64,000 bases of DNA from Sulfitobacter indolifex. GTDB taxonomy: Bacteria > Pseudomonadota > Alphaproteobacteria > Rhodobacterales > Rhodobacteraceae. Location: assembly GCF_022788655.1 (NCBI RefSeq), contig NZ_CP084955.1, positions 96,517 through 160,516 of the forward strand. Direction: 5' to 3'. The notes under the pieces were generated by a model, which saw nothing but the letters and a program-made list of their open reading frames with translations, ran no database searches and was not told the DNA's origin. Position 1 is the first letter of the stretch; each line of letters opens with the position of its first letter. The position numbers were made by a program, and so were the translations under genes. Below, piece by piece: positions 8,581-36,105 of the stretch.

Positions 8581-9036
8581 ATGGTTTCTCGGAGCCTTAA
8601 TACCACAGCCGCCATCATGGGTCGTCCCATACACGCGATGCTTGTCAGCTTCCCCATTGTGTGTTTCACGCTGGCCCTGCTGACGGATCTCGCCTATTGG
8701 CAAACCGGTATACTGATGTGGCAGCATTTCTCGTCTTGGCTATTGCTGGCCGGTTTGGTGATGGGCGGACTTGCCGCAATCGCGGGTTGCATCGACCTCA
8801 TCGGGAGCGCGCGCATCCGTGCGATCTCTTCTGTCTGGGTGCATGCTGCAGGCAATGTCGTGGTTCTCGCACTCGCCTTAGTCAACAGCCTTGTACATGC
8901 AGGAGATGGCTGGACGGCGGTCGTTCCTTGGGGATTGGCTCTTTCAGCTGCCACGGTTTTAATAATGCTGGTCACAAGCTGGTTGGGCAGCGGCTTGGTG
9001 CACCGACATGGCGTGGGGGTTTCACGCCATGATTGA
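8581..9036 (+). CDS. DUF2231 integral membrane protein
   Basis: The protein has 151 residues and four hydrophobic helices. The family signature is near the N-terminus: GRPIHAMLVSFPIVCFTLALLTDL, where the His is typical of DUF2231. The second half contains WVHAAGNVVVLALALVN. The family is often found beside dehydrogenases or heme/electron-transfer proteins, but no activity is established. The 3' end overlaps the start of the dehydrogenase gene by 8 bases, which supports co-expression. It could anchor the exported dehydrogenase or link it to the respiratory chain (inference from order). Confidence 0.85.
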   Translation: MVSRSLNTTAAIMGRPIHAMLVSFPIVCFTLALLTDLAYWQTGILMWQHFSSWLLLAGLVMGGLAAIAGCIDLIGSARIRAISSVWVHAAGNVVVLALALVNSLVHAGDGWTAVVPWGLALSAATVLIMLVTSWLGSGLVHRHGVGVSRHD

Positions 9037-10675
9037 TTGTTCCGCGACTGACCGCATTCCGGGCTCACTTCCGGCCCCGATTACACTGAGAATGGCCTGC
9101 TTGGTGATAACTATGGCAGTCACAACTTTGCCAATGTCTGTCACTGCGCAGGAGAGCGGATTTGATGTCTCCAGCCAAATTGGCCCGAATCCGGTGCTGC
9201 CAGAACCACGTATGTCGTTCCTGCCCGATATGAAGCTTGCCGAAGTGGTCGGCTGGCAGGAGGACGAAACGCCGACGGTCCCCGACGGGTTCACTGTAAC
9301 GGTCTATGCAAAGGATCTTGTGAATCCGCGCACGGTCCATACCCTTCCCAACGGCGATGTGCTGGTCGTACAAGGACGAGGCCCGTCAGGTAAGCCGCTG
9401 CTTCGGCCCAAGGACTATATCCGGGGTTGGGTGATGAGCCTTGCCAAGGGCGGAGGAGGAGGGCCGAAGAAGGACAGCAATCTGATTACCCTGCTGCGCG
9501 ACACGGATCGTGATGGCGTTGTGGATGAACGTAGTGATCTGCTGACTGACTTGAATTCTCCTTTCGGAGTGGCTTGGATTGATGACACCCTTTATGTCGC
9601 GGCCGCCGATGCCATCCTGTCATATCCTTACAAGTTAGGCACGCCAGAGATCACCGAAGAGGCAGAGATTCTCACGCCCTTGCCCGGCGGGCCGATCAAC
9701 CACCACTGGACCAAGGACCTAGCCCTAAGCCCTGATGGCACGATGCTTTATGCATCCGTCGGGTCGAATTCCAATGCCGCTGAGCGCGGCATGGAAGCCG
9801 AAAAGGGCCGTGCAGCGATTTGGCAGGTCAATCGGGGGACAGGCGCGAGCAAGATATTCGCTTCCGGCCTGCGCAACCCAAATGGGCTGACCTTCGAACC
9901 TGAAACCGGCACGCTTTGGGCGGTCATCAATGAACGCGACGAATTAGGGCCTAACCTCGTGCCGGATTACATGACGTCGATCATTGATGGCGGGTTTTAC
10001 GGCTGGCCTTGGAGCTATTTTGGCGATCACGTGGATCAACGGGTCTACCCTAGGCGCCCAGACATGGTCGAAAAGGCGCTATCGCCTGATTACGCCCTGT
10101 CGAGCCACGTGGCACCGTTGGGCATGATTTTTTCACAGGGTTCCGCGATGCCTGAGCCATACGCCAACGGTGCGTTTGTCGGTGAACACGGCAGTTGGAA
10201 CCGCGATCATTTTAATGGATACAAGGTAAGCTACATTCCCTTCGAGGACGGCAAGCCGGCTGGGAAAGCGGTCGCATTTGTCACCGATTTCCTTTCAGGG
10301 GAGCAAGCGCGGGGTCGGCCGGTCGGCGTTGGCATTGATGGGACCGGTGCATTACTGGTGGCCGATGATGCTGGCAATACGGTCTGGCGGATAGCCCCGT
10401 CGGACGGCACCGTGACGTCCGAGCCTGTCGGATCGGACGGGCAGCGGCTGCTCGCAGACGCTGGCGCGCAAAATGGCGAAGACCCTGCACCGGCAACCAC
10501 GAAGACAGATTCAGAAACCGTAGAGGATCAACAGCAGAAGCCGGAAAACGAAGAGAATGGGAGTGTGGAAGACAGCATCAGCGAGGGCGGCGCTGCTGAC
10601 GCTGTGTCGCCTACGCCACTGACAACTGTCCCCGCGGTCAATCCCGATGCGGATCAAAACTCCGGGCAACAATAG
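9029..10675 (+). CDS. Exported sorbosone dehydrogenase-family (beta-propeller) protein
   Basis: 548 residues. The N-terminus has a signal-peptide-like helix ending in SVTAQES (about residue 40). The body is the soluble PQQ-dependent aldose/sorbosone dehydrogenase type of six-bladed propeller: PDGFTVTVYAKDLVNPRTV, LRDTDRDGVVDE (a DxDxDG calcium-like loop), INHHWTKDLALSPDGTMLY, SGLRNPNGLTFEPETGTLW, GFYGWPWSYFG, GEHGSWNRD and GRPVGVGIDGTGALLVADDAGN. The last 75 residues are an unusual low-complexity acidic tail. The start at 9029 is preferred; a start 21 bases upstream is in frame. Expected to oxidise sugars or aldehydes in the periplasm; substrate and cofactor are not shown. Confidence 0.87.
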   Translation: MIDCSATDRIPGSLPAPITLRMACLVITMAVTTLPMSVTAQESGFDVSSQIGPNPVLPEPRMSFLPDMKLAEVVGWQEDETPTVPDGFTVTVYAKDLVNPRTVHTLPNGDVLVVQGRGPSGKPLLRPKDYIRGWVMSLAKGGGGGPKKDSNLITLLRDTDRDGVVDERSDLLTDLNSPFGVAWIDDTLYVAAADAILSYPYKLGTPEITEEAEILTPLPGGPINHHWTKDLALSPDGTMLYASVGSNSNAAERGMEAEKGRAAIWQVNRGTGASKIFASGLRNPNGLTFEPETGTLWAVINERDELGPNLVPDYMTSIIDGGFYGWPWSYFGDHVDQRVYPRRPDMVEKALSPDYALSSHVAPLGMIFSQGSAMPEPYANGAFVGEHGSWNRDHFNGYKVSYIPFEDGKPAGKAVAFVTDFLSGEQARGRPVGVGIDGTGALLVADDAGNTVWRIAPSDGTVTSEPVGSDGQRLLADAGAQNGEDPAPATTKTDSETVEDQQQKPENEENGSVEDSISEGGAADAVSPTPLTTVPAVNPDADQNSGQQ

Positions 10676-10893
10676 GGAGATTGGTCTTAGCCGACGCCGC
10701 CTAAAGGTACTGGGCTCACTTCTGGTGACCTTACCCCAAGTTTACATGGCGCCGGACCCAAAAACCTTAGGACCCTTTAAGCTCTAATCACCAAGATAGA
10801 GATCCAGTGGAAACCGCGGAAATCGGACCATGCCGTCAGGTGCTGTCTGGTGTCTGGTAAACCCGTATCGACAACTTGACATTGCCCCCCCAT

Positions 10894-11667
10894 TCATAAC
10901 CACCCTGCCCAGTATGGTTGATAGCCATAGTGGGTGTACATCCGTTCTTCATATTCCCGATCTAAAGTCATCGAGGGATCGAACCCAGGCGCGGCCTTGA
11001 CCCTGTACCGGGTGACATCAACGAATATTTTCCTGTCGCTCCAATCGATTTCGCGCAGCCAATGCGGGGAAATCAAAACCATCTTTCCAGGCCACCAGTT
11101 TTTGGTGTCGATCATCAGGTAGCGAATGATCCATTCAGTTTCGTCGATCACGAAATTCTCAATGTGACCAATGCTGCCGTCAGTGGCTTCGACATAGTAA
11201 CCGGTCACCTCACTGATACTGCGAAGGTGGGGATCCCCGTGCTGACTTTTCTCCGTCGCCTCCGGCTTATCAGTGCGAATAGTCTTCTCCGGGACGACTG
11301 CGCCAACAGGCTGCATTCCTCCGACCAGCGCGTAGCCATACCCGCTGTCCCAGTACGGGCTCCACCCGTAGTGGCCATAAATATCGGCCTCAAGTTGATG
11401 GGATACCGGCTCGTCGGTTTCAAGTCCGGGAGCCGCCTCTATCTCATCGAGATTGAGGTCGACAGGATACTCGCGCACGGAAGGGTCCGGGCTCCCAAGC
11501 GCAGATGGAGGCAACAGAACCTTACGGCCCGGAAGCCATTTGCCAGTATCGACAACCATCCACCGAAGAGCAAAGTGCCGATCGTCAAAGAGAAGATCCG
11601 TAATTGAACCGACCGTGCCGTCCTTCGCGCGGAGTTTATATCCAACAATATCATAACTGCGTTGCAT
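10894..11667 (-). CDS. PRC-barrel protein with two barrels
   Basis: A strong ribosome site, AAGGAGGAGTAACC, directly precedes this ATG, which fixes the start; an upstream in-frame Met would bury it. The 257 residues carry two PRC-barrel units. The first is SYDIVGYKLRAKDGTVGSITDLLFDD with RWMVVDTGKWLPGRKVLLPP. The second is SEVTGYYVEATDGSIGHIENFVID with RYLMIDTKNWWPGKMVLISP. A Tyr/Gly-rich linker with HYGWSPYWDSGYGYA lies between, and a similar HYGYQPYW is at the C-terminus. No signal peptide is visible, so it is probably cytoplasmic. The family occurs in ribosome maturation, photosynthetic reaction centres and stress proteins; this arrangement is of unknown function. Confidence 0.85.
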   Translation of the reverse strand: MQRSYDIVGYKLRAKDGTVGSITDLLFDDRHFALRWMVVDTGKWLPGRKVLLPPSALGSPDPSVREYPVDLNLDEIEAAPGLETDEPVSHQLEADIYGHYGWSPYWDSGYGYALVGGMQPVGAVVPEKTIRTDKPEATEKSQHGDPHLRSISEVTGYYVEATDGSIGHIENFVIDETEWIIRYLMIDTKNWWPGKMVLISPHWLREIDWSDRKIFVDVTRYRVKAAPGFDPSMTLDREYEERMYTHYGYQPYWAGWL

Positions 11668-28754: not shown

Positions 28755-29163
28755 CGGTGAGCTCCTTTCCTAGATATAGTAAAACTAAGCTTCCAAACTC
28801 TCATTGCAATCAGCGCAGAGGCGTGCTGCGTATTTTTGCTTATAGAGCTGTCCTCTAGGTCGCTCTGAGTGCTAGGCTTACAATGATCGACAAGCGACGG
28901 CTTCTCAGGCTTCCGAGATAGGGTGGCTATCTTGGGCCCTAATTCAAAGCGCTTCTTGAAGTGCCGCTGACTCCTCTATTAGGCCAATATCCGCGCAAGA
29001 ATCGGCTATAAGTAGGCATTTTATTGCCTCTTCAAATCTGAACGTTGGCAAGACGAAAGTCGGATATTGCGCAATGTCGGGCGTCTTCCTACATCCTGAT
29101 TACTTGCGTTTGCATGCTTATCAGAGCGTTTGAGCGAATGCCCTTCTGTCCGAAAGCCCCCTC
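28755..29163. other. Intergenic stretch upstream of the split kinase gene
   Basis: This should hold the kinase promoter. A minus-strand frame at 28944-29051 reads PTFRFEEAIKCLLIADSCADIG and ends SAALQEAL. It looks protein-like but has only a TTG start and no ribosome site, so it may be the tail of a lost gene. Nothing else recognised. Confidence 0.4.
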
Positions 29164-30082
29164 ATGAATTACGATCATCTAGCTCTATCAGAGTTCGGCA
29201 TACCTCTGTCTGATTTCGACATCCGGTTCGATAAAATCACCCATCTGGCTTCGCGCCTCCTAAGCACACCGGTTTCATTGCTCACTGTCATCGACGATAC
29301 AGCTGATCTCCAGCTTCTAAAGTCGGCAGTAGGTGTCCCGGATGAGCTGCACCAGAATCGTGCAACACCGCTAAGTCATTCTTTCTGCAAGTATGTACGG
29401 GATAGCGGAGCACCGTTGTCTTTAACTGATGCTCGGGCCGACCCAATCCATATGCATAACCCCGCAATAGATGCTTTTGGGGTCGTTAGCTATCTTGGCG
29501 TTCCGTTTCACGGCGAGCGCGGTGAGCCAATTGGTGCACTATGCTGCATGGATATACGCCCTCGAGAATGGGCCGATCAAGATGTTGAGATACTGATGCA
29601 TCTGGCTTCCATCGCGGATGATCAGTTCCAGTTGGCCTCTGCCGTCAGGGATCGTGCAAGAGCTAAACTTTTGGCAGAGCGCGCTGCCCTCGCCCGAAGC
29701 AGCTTTTTGTCTCATGCAAATCACGAAGTACGTACCCCTCTAAGCGCTATTTCGGGGGCCGCACGCCTTCTTAGTGCCGCTTCAACAGACACAAAGACGC
29801 GTAGTCTGGTAGAGGTGATTGATCGAAATACGTTGCGCCTTCGCGCTCTCACAGATGACTTAATCCGTATTGCTGAGTTGGATACGGCCACCGCTTCTAT
29901 AGAGGCGGAGTCTGTTGACCTTATTGAGCTGATCAAGGATATTTTCGCAAAATATGAGGGTGCGGCCCATTCCAAAGGCTTAAACTTGGTCCTCAGTACC
30001 GAGACTATAAATAGCCTAACTTTCTTGTTTGATGCTGCCGTCCTCACCAACGTAATAGATCGTCTCGTATCTAATGCGATCA

Positions 30083-30090
30083 AATTCACT
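30083..30090 (+). repeat. Left copy of IS66 target-site duplication
   Basis: AATTCACT lies directly left of the element and is repeated exactly at 32607-32614. Eight bases is the normal duplication for IS66. Confidence 0.95.
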
Positions 30091-30118
30091 GTAAGCGGTG
30101 TCTGGCCAGCACTTGGGA

Positions 30119-31711
30119 TCAGCTTGACGGCTGGAAATTCCAAGGAAGAAGGTCGTCGATGCGATTGGCAGGATGACCTGACGCAATCGCTTCAAGGGTC
30201 GCTTTGAGGTATGCGAACGGTTCGACATCATTGACCTTCGCGGTGGCGATGAGAGATGCGATGCGGCCCCAGGCGTGACCACCTTCGTCGTGACCGGCAA
30301 AAAGCGCATTTTTTCGCGTCAGGGCAATTGGGCGGATCAAGTTCTCGACGGCATTGGAGTCAATCTCGACCCGACCGTCGTGCAGAAAGGTTTGCAGCCC
30401 GCTCCATTGCCGATGGATATAGGTCAACTTTTCGCCGAGGCGGGACTTCGAGGAGATCCGGCGCCGTTGGTTCTGAAGCCACTCGCCGAACTCTGCAATC
30501 AATGGCGCCGTGCGGGTCTGGCGTGCCGAGAGGCGCTGACCGGGACCCATCCCACGGATCTCGCTTTCAATGCGGTAGAACTCCGCGATCCGACGCAGCC
30601 CTTCTGCGGCGATCTCTGAGCCGTCTCGATCAAAGACTTCTTTCAGCTTGCGACGCGCGTGTGCCCAACAATACGCGACGGAGATCGGCGCGCCGCCTTT
30701 CCGCGACGGGCGCGTCAGCCGATTGTAGCCAGCATAGCCGTCCAGTTGCAGAGTGCCGTCAAAGCCCTGCAAGATCTGTTCTGCATTCTGCCCCGCACGA
30801 CCCGGGGCATAGGTGAAGACAACGCCTGGTGGATCATCTCCACCCCATCCTCGGTCGTCGCGCGCCAGTGCCCAAAGGTATCCGGTCTTCGTGCGGCCTC
30901 GACCTGGGTCCAGGACGGGGGCCGTTGTCTCATCCATAAATAGCTTGCCGGACTTCTTTAGATGCTCAGCCAAGCGGTCCACGACAGGGCCAAGATGGAA
31001 AGCCGCTGTGCCGACCCAATCGGCCAAAGTGCTACGGTGGATATCGACGCCGGAGCGGGCAAGGATTTGGCTTTGGCGATACAACGGCAGGTGGTCTGAG
31101 AATTTGCTGACCAGCACATGTGCGATGGCACCCTCAGTCGGCAACCCGCCTTCGATCAGATACGCAGGAGCCGGGGCCTGCGTGATACCTTCAGCGCAGG
31201 AACGGCAAGCATATTTGGGGCGAACGGTGACGATGACACGCAGCTGCGCTGGAATGATATCCAGCCGCTCGGTGCGGTCTTCGCCTATACGGTGCATCTC
31301 GCCACATCCGCAGGGGCAGTTCAAACTCTGAGGCTCGACCACCCGTTCAACCCGTGGAAGGTCTGCGGGAAGATTGCCACGGTTACGCCGGGCAGCTTTG
31401 CGAGGCCGTGCCTCTGAGAAGGTCTGCTCAGCTTGCTGAGTCTCAACTTCGGCGACGGCCACCTCAAGGTCTTCAAAAGCCAGCTGACGCTCATCCTCGC
31501 TTAACTTCTCCGACCGCTTGCCATGTGTGGCGTTCTTGAGTTCGGCAATAAGGTGCTCCAGACGCTTAACCAAAACTTCCAGCTCAGATGTTTTGGTTTG
31601 CAGCCCGGTCGTCTCTTGCTTCAGCGATTTGTTCTCGCGCAGCACCGCCAAGACAGCTTCACGCTGGCTCTCGGGGATGGCAGATAAATCGATGGGCGGC
31701 AAGTTAGACAT
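30119..31711 (-). CDS. tnpC: IS66 transposase TnpC
   Basis: 530 residues, the normal size. The N-terminal coiled coil (ENKSLKQETTGLQTKTSELEVLVKRLEHL) and the HGKRSEKL motif are followed by a Cys-rich zinc-like region (LNCPCGCGEMHRIGED, CRSC). The DDE core follows: LFMDETTAPVLDPGRGRTKTGYLWALARDDRGWGG, LQLDGYAGYNRL, AYCWAHARRKLKEV, and VENLIRPIALTRKNALFAGHDEGGHAWGRIASLI. It is the last gene of the IS operon. Confidence 0.95.
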   Translation of the reverse strand: MSNLPPIDLSAIPESQREAVLAVLRENKSLKQETTGLQTKTSELEVLVKRLEHLIAELKNATHGKRSEKLSEDERQLAFEDLEVAVAEVETQQAEQTFSEARPRKAARRNRGNLPADLPRVERVVEPQSLNCPCGCGEMHRIGEDRTERLDIIPAQLRVIVTVRPKYACRSCAEGITQAPAPAYLIEGGLPTEGAIAHVLVSKFSDHLPLYRQSQILARSGVDIHRSTLADWVGTAAFHLGPVVDRLAEHLKKSGKLFMDETTAPVLDPGRGRTKTGYLWALARDDRGWGGDDPPGVVFTYAPGRAGQNAEQILQGFDGTLQLDGYAGYNRLTRPSRKGGAPISVAYCWAHARRKLKEVFDRDGSEIAAEGLRRIAEFYRIESEIRGMGPGQRLSARQTRTAPLIAEFGEWLQNQRRRISSKSRLGEKLTYIHRQWSGLQTFLHDGRVEIDSNAVENLIRPIALTRKNALFAGHDEGGHAWGRIASLIATAKVNDVEPFAYLKATLEAIASGHPANRIDDLLPWNFQPSS

Positions 31712-31766
31712 GCCCGGATTATAGCTTGATTTACGCCCAAATGGGCAGGCTTTTTGCGCCCCCGAG

Positions 31767-32120
31767 TCACTCTGCCGCAGCCGGTCTGCGGGGTTCTAAC
31801 GAACGCACCCGGCGCCAGTCCAACCCTGCAAATAACGCCTCGAATTGGGGGCGGTTCAAGGTGATCGCGCCATCTCGAATGGCTGGCCAAATGAAGCTGT
31901 TCTCCTCAAGTCGTTTGTAGGTCATCACGAGCCCGCTCCCGTCCCAGAACAAAATCTTCATCCTGTCAGCCCGCTTGGCGCGGAATACAAAGACTGTTCC
32001 GGTAAAGGGGTCTTGGGCCAATGCCGACTGCACCATCGAAGCCAATCCATCGTGTCCTTTACGGAAGTCCACCGGCCGCGTTGCAACCAATATCCGAATG
32101 CCTTGCGATGGCATCAGCAT
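31767..32120 (-). CDS. tnpB: IS66 accessory protein TnpB
   Basis: 117 residues with the conserved IS66 Orf2 blocks: ILVATRPVDFRKGHDGLASMVQ, DPFTGTVFVFRAKRADRMKILFWDGSGLVMTYKRLE and FIWPAIRDGAITLNRPQFEALFAGLDWRRV. It is required for transposition in studied IS66 elements, by an unknown mechanism. It overlaps tnpA by 7 bases. Confidence 0.95.
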   Translation of the reverse strand: MLMPSQGIRILVATRPVDFRKGHDGLASMVQSALAQDPFTGTVFVFRAKRADRMKILFWDGSGLVMTYKRLEENSFIWPAIRDGAITLNRPQFEALFAGLDWRRVRSLEPRRPAAAE

Positions 32121-32533
32121 GAAGAAGCTTCAAGCGCATGAGCGATCTTTGCAATCCTAACCGCCGGTGTCTGCAACGGCAGCTCGATGGCGATCTGTCC
32201 AAAGATTAATCTGATCGCCTCATTCGGAACAGTCAGAGCTTCTGTGGGCTCTTCCGGCGCAGCAGAAACCACCAACGGAGCGAAGAGTGGCTCGTCAGTC
32301 TCCGGGGCGGGTAACAACAGCTTCCCTTGCTTAGCCTGTCGGCGCCACGCCGATAGCTGGTTCGGAAGGATGCCATACCGCTCAGCGACAGCGTTCACCG
32401 TTGCGCCGACCTCAAGCGTGTCCGCCACCGCCCGCGCCTTTGCGGTATCCGACCAACGGCGGTGGCCGGACGCATAAATCTCAACGCCCAGTGATCTGAG
32501 AAACGAATTTGTAGCGCACATTGCGAAACGCAC
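32114..32533 (-). CDS. tnpA: IS66 accessory protein TnpA (helix-turn-helix)
   Basis: 139 residues. A helix-turn-helix lies at about 20-65: GHRRWSDTAKARAVADTLEVGATVNAVAERYGILPNQLSAWRRQAKQGKL. The C-terminal part is typical IS66 Orf1 (IRLIFGQIAIELPLQTPAVRIAKIAHAL). The first gene of the IS operon, starting about 70 bases inside the right end. Confidence 0.92.
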   Translation of the reverse strand: MRFAMCATNSFLRSLGVEIYASGHRRWSDTAKARAVADTLEVGATVNAVAERYGILPNQLSAWRRQAKQGKLLLPAPETDEPLFAPLVVSAAPEEPTEALTVPNEAIRLIFGQIAIELPLQTPAVRIAKIAHALEASSC

Positions 32534-32606
32534 TCCCCATCATAAGATGGGTTCGTTCTCGCAGTCCTGATCACACCCTACAACGTGCCCTCGGGCCACC
32601 GCTTAC

Positions 32607-32614
32607 AATTCACT
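32607..32614 (+). repeat. Right copy of IS66 target-site duplication
   Basis: AATTCACT, identical to the copy at 30083-30090. The kinase reading frame resumes directly after it. Confidence 0.95.
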
Positions 32615-33191
32615 GCGGTAGGCGACGTCCGGATAACGGTAGAAGAGACCCCCCCAAACGCCTTTGTAATTATTCGCGTAAGCGATACCGGTGTCGGGAT
32701 TGGGCCTAATCTTCAAGGCAAGCTATTTGAAGAATTCGAGGGGCATGACCCCCGAACCGCCCGTGAAGGAGGCGGAACCGGGCTGGGAATGAACATCATA
32801 AAGCGTGAGATTGAGCTGCTAGGCGGCACCATATCTCTAACGAGTCATCTCGGCAAAGGAACCCAATTCGAGGTTTACCTACCGACTGCCGGGAGTTTAG
32901 CAAACAATACACAGTTGGAGAGCGAGCCGCAAAGCGATCCTAGTCAGCTTACTTGCCTCGAATGTGGCGCGAAACTCAGCCTTCTGCGACGTCATCTCAG
33001 GCAAGAACACGGTATGTCCCCTGAAGTGTATCGGGCTAAGTGGGGATTACCAGAAGATTTTGAGCTATCGAGCGGCGCCTATAGAGCAATGCGGGCGGCA
33101 GCTAAGCGCGACAAATGAAATGAGCCTTCGCCTATTAGTGCATCCCAAGATTATCTTTAGCCGTGCACATATAAGGCGCCAAAATCACTAG

Positions 33192-33244
33192 TTTTTGTCG
33201 TCTTTTTCATAATCAACCTGTATGTACTCAAAAAGCGACAAAAA
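33192..33244. repeat. Inverted repeat upstream of a resolvase fragment
   Basis: TTTTTGTCGTCTTTTT (33192-33207) and AAAAAGCGACAAAAA (33230-33244) are inverted copies apart from one base, separated by 22 bases. They end 12 bases before the start codon of a serine-recombinase fragment. Position and symmetry fit a resolution (res) subsite of a Tn3-type resolvase. Confidence 0.6.
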
Positions 33245-33256
33245 CAGGGTGACAGA

Positions 33257-33310
33257 ATGAGTTACGGATATGTGAGGGTTTCGACGGCTGACACGAGCGG
33301 CCCAGAGCAG
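33257..33310 (+). pseudogene. Serine recombinase (resolvase) N-terminal fragment
   Basis: The first codons read SYGYVRVSTAD, the standard start of resolvase/invertase proteins including the catalytic Ser region, with GGGTGAC before the ATG. After about residue 15 the sequence (TSGPEQPFVAQERAS) no longer matches the family. Only the promoter-proximal piece of a lost gene remains. From here to 33549 nothing else is recognised. Confidence 0.6.
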
Positions 33311-33549: not shown

Positions 33550-36105
33550 TTAAACGATATAGCGATCCAAACTGCCATAGTGCTCCGCGCTCCGCTTCCC
33601 ACGCGGCAGGCTGAGCGCTAACAAAGCGATGCCAGAGAGCACACCAATTAGGCTACCCGCGACGGTTCCACCGCCCAGAACCCAAGGTGCCACGATCAGC
33701 CACAGCCCAAGGCCGATGTTCAGGAACCGCAGCGGGCGCGCCACTTCGGCCCAAGCAATGACAGCGGTCGTCAGAACCAATGCGCCCACCAAGTGATCAC
33801 TGCCCGCAAGCGGCATGGCATTGCCAAAGATCGTGCGTGACAGCATCAGGAACAGACCGATGGCGGCGCTCACCCCCAGGGTCCAAGGCACAGTGACGCC
33901 CCGCGCACTTTGCCGGGCAATCTCGCGAGGGGGCGCGTCAAAGCTCATGGTGCCGCCCTTAGTTGAGCCTGGAAGTGCATCGCCCCGGAAAAACGCCCGC
34001 CAGAAGGGGCGTCCGCGCCGGGTGTTCCAGACCATGAACTGCACCATTGCAACGATTTCGTCCAAAGAGAACGGGATCATGATCAGCATCGCTGCCGCGG
34101 CGAGCAGACAGATCGTGCAATAGGTTCCGATTGCGATCGGCTGGATAATGATGAAATAGATGCTGATCACCCCCAAGGGCCCCACCACAATGCCAAAAAG
34201 CGCCACCATCCACGGCATCGTGCGCCAGCGCCGGCGGCTGCCCATAACGCCCATGAGAATCTCAAACATATAACTCATTGCGCCCAAGCCGCCGTCGGCG
34301 ACGGGCCAAGCTTTGGAGACATCAGAGGTGACGATATACTCGCTGCCATTGAGGCCCGTGGGCGAGGAAAAGAACGGCTCCCAAATCCCGTCGACATGCC
34401 CCAGCTGATAGGCCGAGAGAATGCGCGACAATAGGAAGCCCACCAGTCCGAGCGCGATAATTGGCAGACGCTGGACATAAGTCGAGGGGCAATAAGTCCA
34501 TCCTGGCGGGATGTCCCCGTCGTCCATCATACCCTCGCGCGACATACCGGGCATCATCGGGATCAGGATCGTCAGCGCGATCACAAGCGCACCGATCAGC
34601 GTGTCATTGGCATAGACCGCCGGGTCCGGCGTCCAGAACACCAGGGGCGCAGCGAGCAGCCAGACCCCAAGCGCCGCGTTCGCCCATTGCGCCCAGCCGT
34701 TGCCGGGTTTCATCGAGACGAAGGCCAGCGCGGTGATGGCCAGCCCTGTAAACACGTTGTTCCACGCCGTCAGCCAACTGCGCAGTGAGGCCGCCCAAAG
34801 CCCGCGATCTTCGGTCACGCGCAGCACGGCGGCGCTGAACTCGGTTTGGTCAAATGTGCCGAAGACCGACGGCGCGGTGGCGAGCCAGAGGCCCAGTGCC
34901 GCGACCAGCCAATGCACCCAGAGCATCTGGAAATGCATCATGCGCATGTGTTTATCATGTTCGCGCACAGCGCTTTGATGTTCGGCGGCACTCTCGTCTT
35001 TCGCTTCGGCGGCGGCCTTTTCTGCTGCCTGATCCACCTTGGCGGCAGAGACCCGCGCCGCGTTCAGGCCGTTTTCCTCATACCAGTGATAAGGATCGGC
35101 TTTCAGCCTTTGCAGCATATGCGGCATGTCTTGGCGCAGGGCGTGCTCAGGGGTCCAACCCAAATGCTCCTCGGCCTGCGACAGGTTGAGTTCGTAGTGA
35201 TCGCTGGAAATATCCACCATCCAAGTGCGGATGAACGCATCTTCCCCAAAAATGCGGTTCTCGGCCCATGCCCCCAGTTTCGCGGCGGCGGGCGGGACGT
35301 TCCATGTCACCCAATCTTCGCCATGCAGCTCGCGCCCGATCAACCGTTGCAGGTCGCCAAAGGGGATCGGCTCAGCTTCCCCCAGCAGCACGGGGAAGAC
35401 ATCCGGGAGAGTTTGGCGGCGGTCGACGATGCGTTCGATCGCGTCGAGCAGATCGTCGAGATGTAAGAACGCTTGTCCGCGAGAGAGATCACCGGGATAG
35501 ACCTTACCGCTCAGGCGTTTTTCGTAGATGCGGGATATTTGGTGGGCGAGAAAGGTCGAATGCCCCTCGTCATCATAGATGCCAGCGGGGCGCATGAGGA
35601 CGAGTTTCTCATCGCCCTTTTCCTCGCGCAACATCGCCTCGGTGCGGATTTTCGAGGCGCGGTAGGGCAGCTTGGGGTCCAGGGGCGCGTTTTCATCTAT
35701 CAGGTTGCCGGGTGTGGTCGGCGCGTGGACCAGCATCGTTGAGGTGAAAATGAACTGCTCCAGCTCAAAGTCTTGCAGACCTTTCAGCAGCCGCTTACTT
35801 CCCTCCACCGTCACCGCGTCATAGGCCGGATCGTCCTCTCCGCTCAGATCAAAGAACGCCGCGAGGTGGACACATGTAGCGATGCGGTCGCCGTAGGCCA
35901 ACCGCAGCCGCGCCAGGGCTTTATCGACGCTGCCTTGGTCCGTGATGTCAAAACAGATACATTCAGCTTGATGAGGCGGATGCGGCGGCGAACTGCGGTC
36001 CAGCCCGACAACGCGGTATTTCTCATGCAGGCGTTTGACGACCGCCACGCCCAGATAGCCGCTTGATCCGGTAACGACGATGACTGGCTTGTCAGACGAC
36101 TCCAT
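33550..36105 (-). CDS. Epimerase-SPW repeat-VKOR-like fusion protein, copy 2 (CxxC kept)
   Basis: 851 residues, same layout as the protein at 18577. The epimerase domain has TGSSGYLG (12-19) and YRASK (Y148, K152). A linker of about 40 charged residues (AEKAAAEAKDESAAEHQ) follows. SPW repeats are HWLVAALGLWLATAPSVF and GWAQWANAALGVWLLAAPLVFW. The VKOR-like region is 545-695 with YQLGHVDGIWEPFF, AWPVADGGLGAMSYMFEI and IAIGTYCTICLL; C663-x2-C666 is the redox pair expected of VKOR. More SPW-like helices complete it. A 39-residue membrane protein starts the unit 15 bases upstream. Possibly a membrane redox enzyme with a nucleotide-binding sensor domain (inference). Confidence 0.87.
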   Translation of the reverse strand: MESSDKPVIVVTGSSGYLGVAVVKRLHEKYRVVGLDRSSPPHPPHQAECICFDITDQGSVDKALARLRLAYGDRIATCVHLAAFFDLSGEDDPAYDAVTVEGSKRLLKGLQDFELEQFIFTSTMLVHAPTTPGNLIDENAPLDPKLPYRASKIRTEAMLREEKGDEKLVLMRPAGIYDDEGHSTFLAHQISRIYEKRLSGKVYPGDLSRGQAFLHLDDLLDAIERIVDRRQTLPDVFPVLLGEAEPIPFGDLQRLIGRELHGEDWVTWNVPPAAAKLGAWAENRIFGEDAFIRTWMVDISSDHYELNLSQAEEHLGWTPEHALRQDMPHMLQRLKADPYHWYEENGLNAARVSAAKVDQAAEKAAAEAKDESAAEHQSAVREHDKHMRMMHFQMLWVHWLVAALGLWLATAPSVFGTFDQTEFSAAVLRVTEDRGLWAASLRSWLTAWNNVFTGLAITALAFVSMKPGNGWAQWANAALGVWLLAAPLVFWTPDPAVYANDTLIGALVIALTILIPMMPGMSREGMMDDGDIPPGWTYCPSTYVQRLPIIALGLVGFLLSRILSAYQLGHVDGIWEPFFSSPTGLNGSEYIVTSDVSKAWPVADGGLGAMSYMFEILMGVMGSRRRWRTMPWMVALFGIVVGPLGVISIYFIIIQPIAIGTYCTICLLAAAAMLIMIPFSLDEIVAMVQFMVWNTRRGRPFWRAFFRGDALPGSTKGGTMSFDAPPREIARQSARGVTVPWTLGVSAAIGLFLMLSRTIFGNAMPLAGSDHLVGALVLTTAVIAWAEVARPLRFLNIGLGLWLIVAPWVLGGGTVAGSLIGVLSGIALLALSLPRGKRSAEHYGSLDRYIV

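Follow-up and report, generated by a model that had tools for sequence, protein, structure and literature searches.

Two-component signalling, as it is taught, relies on a sensing kinase and a separate DNA-binding regulator. A precedent for a DNA-binding sensor kinase is ChiS of Vibrio cholerae, a hybrid sensor kinase that binds DNA via its C-terminal domain (PMC8092284). It is membrane-embedded, and besides HAMP, REC and PAS domains it has a DNA-binding domain of a cryptic helix-turn-helix type. In Ros/MucR proteins the flanks of the finger are basic and important for DNA binding. According to PMC7283297 these proteins oligomerise via their N-terminal half, and PMC13297338 describes S. meliloti MucR2 and MucR3 as binding DNA without bridging, with a tyrosine that may be the fourth zinc ligand. 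No sensor kinase with a Ros/MucR finger was found in our literature search. The sequence-only reading of this DNA, which knew of no described system with such a layout, therefore stands for a fusion of Ros/MucR to a kinase in the literature searched, but not for DNA-binding kinases in general, ChiS being one.

The window analysed here, a stretch of 64,000 nucleotides from Sulfitobacter indolifex, is confirmed to carry a real fusion of GAF, HisKA and HATPase_c domains to a Ros/MucR finger. All four domains were recovered by Pfam where they had first been placed, with matches far beyond chance, and the C-terminal one was assigned to ROS_MUCR at 62 bits in the right half against a cut-off of 25.4. 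H187 and the C-x2-C-x9-H-x4-H spacing are both as first described. The gene halves, 29164-30090 and 32607-33118, are separated by a 2,516-bp IS66 element, as listed below.

29164..30090, forward strand: 5' half of the fusion gene, residues 1-309 (GAF, HisKA and the start of HATPase_c up to SNAIKFT)
29221..29610, forward strand: GAF domain, residues 20-149 (Pfam GAF, 2e-13)
29692..29883, forward strand: HisKA domain, residues 177-240 (Pfam HisKA, 1.5e-13)
29722-29724, forward strand: codon of the phospho-acceptor H187
30083..30090, no strand: 8-bp direct repeat AATTCACT, left of IS66 (read by eye)
30091..32606, reverse strand: IS66-family element, 2,516 bp (94.3% nucleotide identity to an IS66 copy in L007)
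30119..31711, reverse strand: IS66 transposase, 530 aa (Pfam DDE_Tnp_IS66, 9.3e-100)
31767..32120, reverse strand: IS66 Orf2 (TnpB_IS66), 117 aa (Pfam, 1.2e-36)
32114..32533, reverse strand: IS66 Orf1 (HTH_Tnp_1), 139 aa (Pfam, 3.7e-14)
32607..32614, no strand: 8-bp direct repeat AATTCACT, right of IS66 (read by eye)
32607..33118, forward strand: 3' half of the fusion gene, a second allele (rest of HATPase_c, linker, Ros/MucR domain, stop)
32615..32887, forward strand: remainder of HATPase_c with G1, F and G2 boxes (Pfam, 5.9e-19)
32924..33106, forward strand: ROS_MUCR match, profile positions 57-117 of 123, DNA-binding half only (Pfam, 7.2e-17)
32954..33010, forward strand: zinc finger C-x2-C-x9-H-x4-H (read from the sequence)

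The element has the termini GTAAGCG...CGCTTAC (read by eye) and encodes all three IS66 proteins according to Pfam. The 8 bases of the direct repeat, AATTCACT, are also present at the corresponding place in the S. delicatus gene. Compared apart and unjoined, the two halves of the window gene show different relationships to S. delicatus (L008): the left half differs at 15 of 927 bases and the right half at 76 of 512 (Fisher p 3e-22). The corresponding nucleotide identities are 98.4%, extending over 29100-30091, and 85.2%, and those of the proteins 97.1% and 81.7%. No such jump between halves is seen in the control pairs, in which an intact copy of the S. indolifex genome, C8, was compared with S. 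litoralis (209/927 and 99/504 bases differ, left and right) and with S. delicatus (277/927 and 172/504). A single ancestral gene in the window is thereby ruled out. The joined 476-residue protein proposed earlier has the right length and frame, but its halves are two different alleles; it is thus a mosaic, and the two may never have been parts of a single protein. The copy in the window is disrupted, both by IS66 and in being composed of two alleles.

The intact 476-residue copy C8 lies on a 17-kb contig, and intact copies also occur in named Sulfitobacter strains, the gene being often plasmid-borne in those of these marine bacteria that have it. With C8 included, the fusion is found in 25 among the 120 protein clusters listed. 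These copies establish the fusion as a conserved architecture. It had been proposed that the fusion would be a local accident if a search for proteins with both HATPase_c and ROS_MUCR gave no intact orthologue; the orthologues found in the same genome and in other strains rule this out. Within the same clade there are also finger-less relatives (P0025, P0027, P0030, P0031), and in S. faviae a stop in the linker is followed by a decayed finger, so the finger is at times dispensable.

Wider searches were limited by exact words and length. With the C8 finger as query, 16 candidates gave seven matches, all from the same kinase-finger family and none outside the clade; with the canonical MucR DNA-binding region, 143 long proteins were obtained, and HATPase_c (PF02518) was present in none of the 120 listed. 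A survey of the class gave a MucR match in 197 of 289 genomes; it lists the best matches only, and as these are almost entire MucR proteins, fusions of the half-domain could have stayed hidden. Two of its four listed matches in frames of more than 300 residues were read, and both appear by eye to be MucR with an upstream open non-coding stretch.

The finger core has a mean identity of 73%, against 23% for the preceding linker, and its dN/dS is 0.09-0.19, with a constraint similar to that on HisKA (pairs with saturated dS, printed as 0.0, were excluded, and alignments A1, A2 and A3 were made without P0019, a near copy of P0018). For the right half of the window against S. delicatus, dN/dS is 0.154 over 91 codons. 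The four zinc ligands are kept in 24, 24, 24 and 23 of the 24 fusion orthologues, and the arginine pair R434/R435 is invariant in all of them. The one changed fourth ligand, a tyrosine, is in P0026 from Tranquillimonas rosea. The identity contrast, the low dN/dS and the invariant ligands and arginines together indicate that the finger is under selection. A C2H2 finger with 9-residue spacing, a ROS_MUCR domain and a match to 2JSP (E 3.6e-12) are present; the oligomerising half (profile positions 1-56) is absent, the match starting at 57 with the kinase preceding it. Judged from these features, the protein contains a Ros/MucR domain without being a classical MucR. Zinc and DNA binding by the finger are predicted from its ligands and from residues that match the DNA contacts of MucR.

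The catalytic residues of the kinase are intact. All 24 fusion proteins share H187, E188, T191, N304 and the residues of the G1, F and G2 boxes, and H187 is unchanged in all 33 rows of alignment A1. T191 is a position linked to phosphatase activity. The phospho-acceptor histidine together with the N, G1, F and G2 residues identifies a HisKA-type sensor histidine kinase, and HisKA dN/dS is 0.055-0.113 for pairs with finite dS. A fold search gave a match list filled by the kinase core, and so covers the kinase and not the finger. The AF2 model is a monomer (pTM 0.55) that does not fix the relative placement of the domains; modelled by itself, the finger gave a low-confidence structure that lacked its strands (mean pLDDT 58.2, three rows), and this was discarded. 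With Pfam thresholds as loose as E 1, neither the left nor the right half had a Response_reg match, and PF00072 is absent from the precomputed domains of P0001-P0024 and P0026. By 19-residue hydropathy means, no clear membrane segment of a transmembrane or periplasmic part was seen in the C8 copy or S. delicatus: the highest values outside GAF are 1.37 and 1.35, respectively, and the only window above 1.6 (1.69, C8 residues 25-43) falls inside the modelled GAF domain.

REC-domain genes adjoin the fusion gene at four of the nine loci examined, representing about two independent contexts. At the other five, including both copies in the S. indolifex genome, the flanking 5 kb showed no receiver gene; L004 and L007 were judged by eye from open frames, and the plasmid annotation may be incomplete. 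In S. faviae a single-domain receiver lies 6.6 kb from the fusion gene. The S. delicatus receivers also adjoin another kinase; this and the five loci speak against a receiver partner. The neighbouring receivers L008_RR327 and L010_RRadj are 50% identical, and since each is 52-54% identical to a chromosomal receiver of the S. indolifex genome, they are not a tight partner pair; the rows own_C2 and own_C1_3221, which were in the wrong-strand translation, were excluded from this comparison. Pfam placed a GGDEF-like second half in one of the four receivers scanned, at 21.2 bits and under the 23.8 cut-off; alignment to that one suggests the same in the other three. A kinase working without any response regulator, as suggested from the sequence at first, is not favoured, because the catalytic residues are invariant in 24/24 and some copies adjoin receiver genes.

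We lean towards a soluble, DNA-anchored sensor kinase. Dimerisation would come from the kinase part, and each dimer would carry two Ros-type fingers tethering it to AT-rich promoters. A signal received by GAF would act on the kinase core. The altered core could then transfer phosphate differently to a receiver in trans, close to the DNA that is bound, and/or change how the protein holds DNA and thereby affect transcription directly, in the manner of ChiS. In this proposal, the dimeric presentation, the control by GAF and the receiver partner are inferred. A bolder version, possible though we doubt it, would have nucleoid-tethered sensor kinases, often plasmid-borne, use the DNA-binding half of an H-NS-like silencer as two-fingered dimers on AT-rich promoters, the GAF ligand leading to on-the-spot receiver phosphorylation or to lifting of MucR silencing.

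A pure one-component regulator, in which the core does no more than sense and change its conformation, promoters are regulated by the fingers and a receiver is unneeded, is unlikely: the DNA binding of ChiS by its C-terminal domain (PMC8092284) and the five receiver-free loci are in its favor, but invariant H187, E188 and T191 and the low HisKA dN/dS are hard to explain if phosphotransfer is unused.

Quite improbable in our estimate is an ordinary two-component kinase whose finger mainly represses its own promoter and sets the level of an often plasmid-borne kinase. Brucella MucR can repress its own gene, according to PMC5881533, and in the genus survey the fusion gene has a patchy distribution and does not lie on the largest contig. 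That survey (E <= 1e-60) found the finger fusion in 5 of 62 genomes, with every intact match on a contig of 17-337 kb and two of the five genomes being drafts. Four more genomes had a weaker match, and the three that were read, with L022 left out, are all finger-less. At E <= 1e-100, a family survey that scored four candidates per genome, mostly with one genome per genus, matched 1 of 394 genomes, the window's own. The search of a plasmid collection can show plasmids only; the P0026 fusion is on a 4.08-Mb contig.

The finger may instead be a protein-interaction module, for example for partner docking, which we regard as very unlikely. The 20 residues before the finger carry a net negative charge in 21 of 24 proteins, the C-terminal tail is short, and the equivalent of Arg128, the second minor-groove residue of MucR, is seemingly absent. 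It is noted that these features, like the finger-less relatives, speak against the DNA-anchored reading. However, the R434/R435 pair is conserved, as is a basic residue at position 469, and docking on MucR by oligomerisation is unlikely because the N-terminal half that serves it (PMC7283297) is missing. An annotation accident or a decayed, functionless fusion is hardly credible: the broken mosaic in the window and the decayed S. faviae finger fit it, but unbroken frames in other genomes and a constraint on the finger core like that on HisKA largely refute it.

The fusion kinase keeps its catalytic residues along with a domain that is under selection and belongs to an H-NS-like family of DNA-binding silencers; the DNA-binding half of Ros/MucR appears here as a portable module. 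Should it bind DNA, this small and soluble protein could be used to test whether the activity of a kinase can be restricted to particular promoters, and whether MucR silencing can be directly counteracted or mimicked by a sensor.

Like ChiS, the fusion joins a histidine kinase and a C-terminal domain, predicted here to bind DNA, in one chain, but it has a GAF input and a Ros-type zinc finger and lacks a REC match or clear membrane segment. With Ros of Agrobacterium and MucR of Brucella and Sinorhizobium it shares the finger spacing, the zinc ligands, the first two DNA-contact positions and the following helix; in contrast to these regulators, a sensor kinase replaces the oligomerising N-terminal half and the tail is short. 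The tyrosine at the fourth ligand of P0026 resembles S. meliloti MucR2 and MucR3, which are free-standing and without a kinase. MucR DNA-binding domains are joined to other modules as well: among the 120 long MucR proteins listed of 143, ParB (PF02195) occurs in 31, acetyltransferase PF00583 in three (P0123, P0198, P0202) and a PAS domain in one (P0179), with P0144, P0179 and P0198 read individually, whereas HATPase_c occurs in none. Outside the clade, the kinase part is most closely related to the GAF-HisKA-HATPase_c-REC kinases P0032, P0033 and P0034 (31-35% identical over the alignment), which carry a receiver where the Sulfitobacter fusion family has its finger.

The combination of a sensor kinase with a Ros/MucR finger is real and conserved, being found intact on another contig of the same genome (C8) and in other genomes. 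The window is one of three places with ROS_MUCR in its genome; the others are a free-standing MucR on contig C1 and the intact fusion on C8. The last contig, of 17,291 bp, encodes RepC and a relaxase and is thus probably a mobilisable plasmid. The same 17-kb element carries, at 8843-10995 of its locus L004 (G000:C8), an EcoRI-methylase-like protein (1.2e-142) and then a GmrSD_N/HNH protein; the two may form a small restriction-modification or defence pair. The fusion is present in 25 among the best 120 of 1,533 protein matches, and in 5 of 62 genomes of the genus survey. Plasmid records hold it without a stop in DSM 110093 (two plasmids), S. dubius and OXR-159, and broken in S. faviae; the fusion of Tranquillimonas rosea (P0026) is on a 4.08-Mb contig. 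The G+C content of the fusion genes, 50-55% versus 58-60% in three stretches of the largest contig of the window's genome, fits acquisition.

The window copy consists of the following features.

29164-30207: left open frame, GAF and HisKA
30091-32606: IS66 element between both open frames, direct repeats AATTCACT
32585-33118: right open frame, HATPase_c and ROS_MUCR

The sequence-only reading gave H187 and the C2H2 spacing correctly. Its single joined protein is marked by the identity jump at IS66 as a composite of two alleles. Identity to the S. delicatus locus (L008) is 98.4% for window 29100-30091 versus 78.7% for 32607-33291, with the breakpoint at the IS66 element; counted over the gene alone, there are 15 differences in 927 bases left of IS66 and 76 in 512 bases right of it (p 3e-22). 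The intact relative P0008 compared with S. delicatus is without such a jump (90.3% left, 93.4% right). The dN/dS of the right half against S. delicatus is 0.19 for Ros and 0.15 for HATPase, low values which indicate that most of the divergence arose while still under selection. Judged from these alignments, the two sides of IS66 differ in ancestry, which makes the window copy a mosaic as well as a broken gene. Since the S. delicatus gene also has AATTCACT at the insertion place, the repeat alone cannot show which allele IS66 entered. The intact fusion genes of S. litoralis and S. delicatus are likewise followed, at a distance of 1-1.5 kb, by IS66 copies with 92-94% identity to that of the window (L007:12821-15319 and L008:12505-12839, the second truncated by the contig end). 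An intact resolvase (L008:11454-12068, 1.7e-37) follows the S. delicatus fusion gene, and an apparent broken resolvase start is seen by eye at window 33257-33300. Window 33550-36105 encodes an 851-residue protein in which an NAD-dependent epimerase is joined with SPW and VKOR domains.

In a 36-row tree of the kinase part (residues 1-400, without the finger), 24 fusion proteins and four finger-less members form one 28-row clade on a long stem (support 100/100). Outside it are GAF kinases ending in REC instead of the finger (P0032-P0034) or without a further domain. The finger state needs three changes on this tree, at least two of them forced by the starred branches; they may represent one gain and two losses.

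The finger core is about as conserved as HisKA (mean pairwise identity 73% and 74%), with GAF at 66%, HATPase at 61% and the linker at 23%; dN/dS is 0.38-0.48 in the linker versus 0.09-0.19 in the Ros domain (pairs with finite dS). The sequence-inferred zinc ligands are invariant save one Tyr, a residue that may also serve as zinc ligand in S. meliloti MucR2 and MucR3. R434/R435 match MucR Lys91/Arg92 and residue 469 matches Arg126 (register from the 2JSP alignment and our own MucR numbering), all three being modelled DNA contacts. In S. faviae (L013:9120-9420), a linker stop cuts the kinase off from its finger; the latter, annotated as a MucR regulator, is decayed and by eye has lost ligands and frame, as would be expected of a finger no longer in use. 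Against a DNA-binding finger stand the acidic linker of 21 of the 24 fusions and the short C-terminal tail.

HisKA kinases are dimers, so the fusion product is expected to be a dimer, which would display two tethered, putatively DNA-binding fingers. In the AF2 model of the monomer, GAF is predicted with confidence and is accompanied by a long helix (138-206) and a kinase core; past a disordered linker, the C-terminal domain is folded. Of Ros/MucR, the fusion retains the DNA-binding half only; according to PMC7283297 and PMC9779718, oligomerisation is via the N-terminal half, and Ros87 (Ros lacking residues 1-55), a monomer, is the smallest part that binds DNA. REC proteins of ~325 residues (324-327 at L008:7760-9798 and L010:3781-7640) directly adjoin the copies of S. 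delicatus, DSM 110093 and S. dubius; of four receivers scanned, one matches GGDEF weakly over its second half (21.2 bits against a cut-off of 23.8). A similarity search with one S. delicatus receiver found none near either fusion copy of the window's genome; the closest one that it found lies 17 kb from the window copy. The conserved catalytic residues argue for phosphotransfer by the fusion kinase. Taken with REC neighbours at some copies and none found near those of the window's genome, they lead us to favour a DNA-anchored kinase that would signal to a receiver in trans over the chief rival, direct regulation by the fusion protein.

Long proteins with ParB-like and MucR domains are common (31 of 120 among the matches listed); P0144, the only one of them read, has its MucR domain at the C-terminus. 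P0179 (298 residues, MucR then PAS) is a possible sensor-MucR fusion. The words 'kinase' and 'fused' are absent from the main text of a Ros/MucR review (PMC9779718), and search listings of the open-licence literature gave no described kinase-Ros/MucR fusion. The earlier statement that no described system of this layout is known thus stands for the domain combination, as far as searched, and needs qualifying as to function. ChiS, a Vibrio cholerae sensor kinase with its own C-terminal DNA-binding domain, is the closest known system in working, a functional precedent of different make-up.
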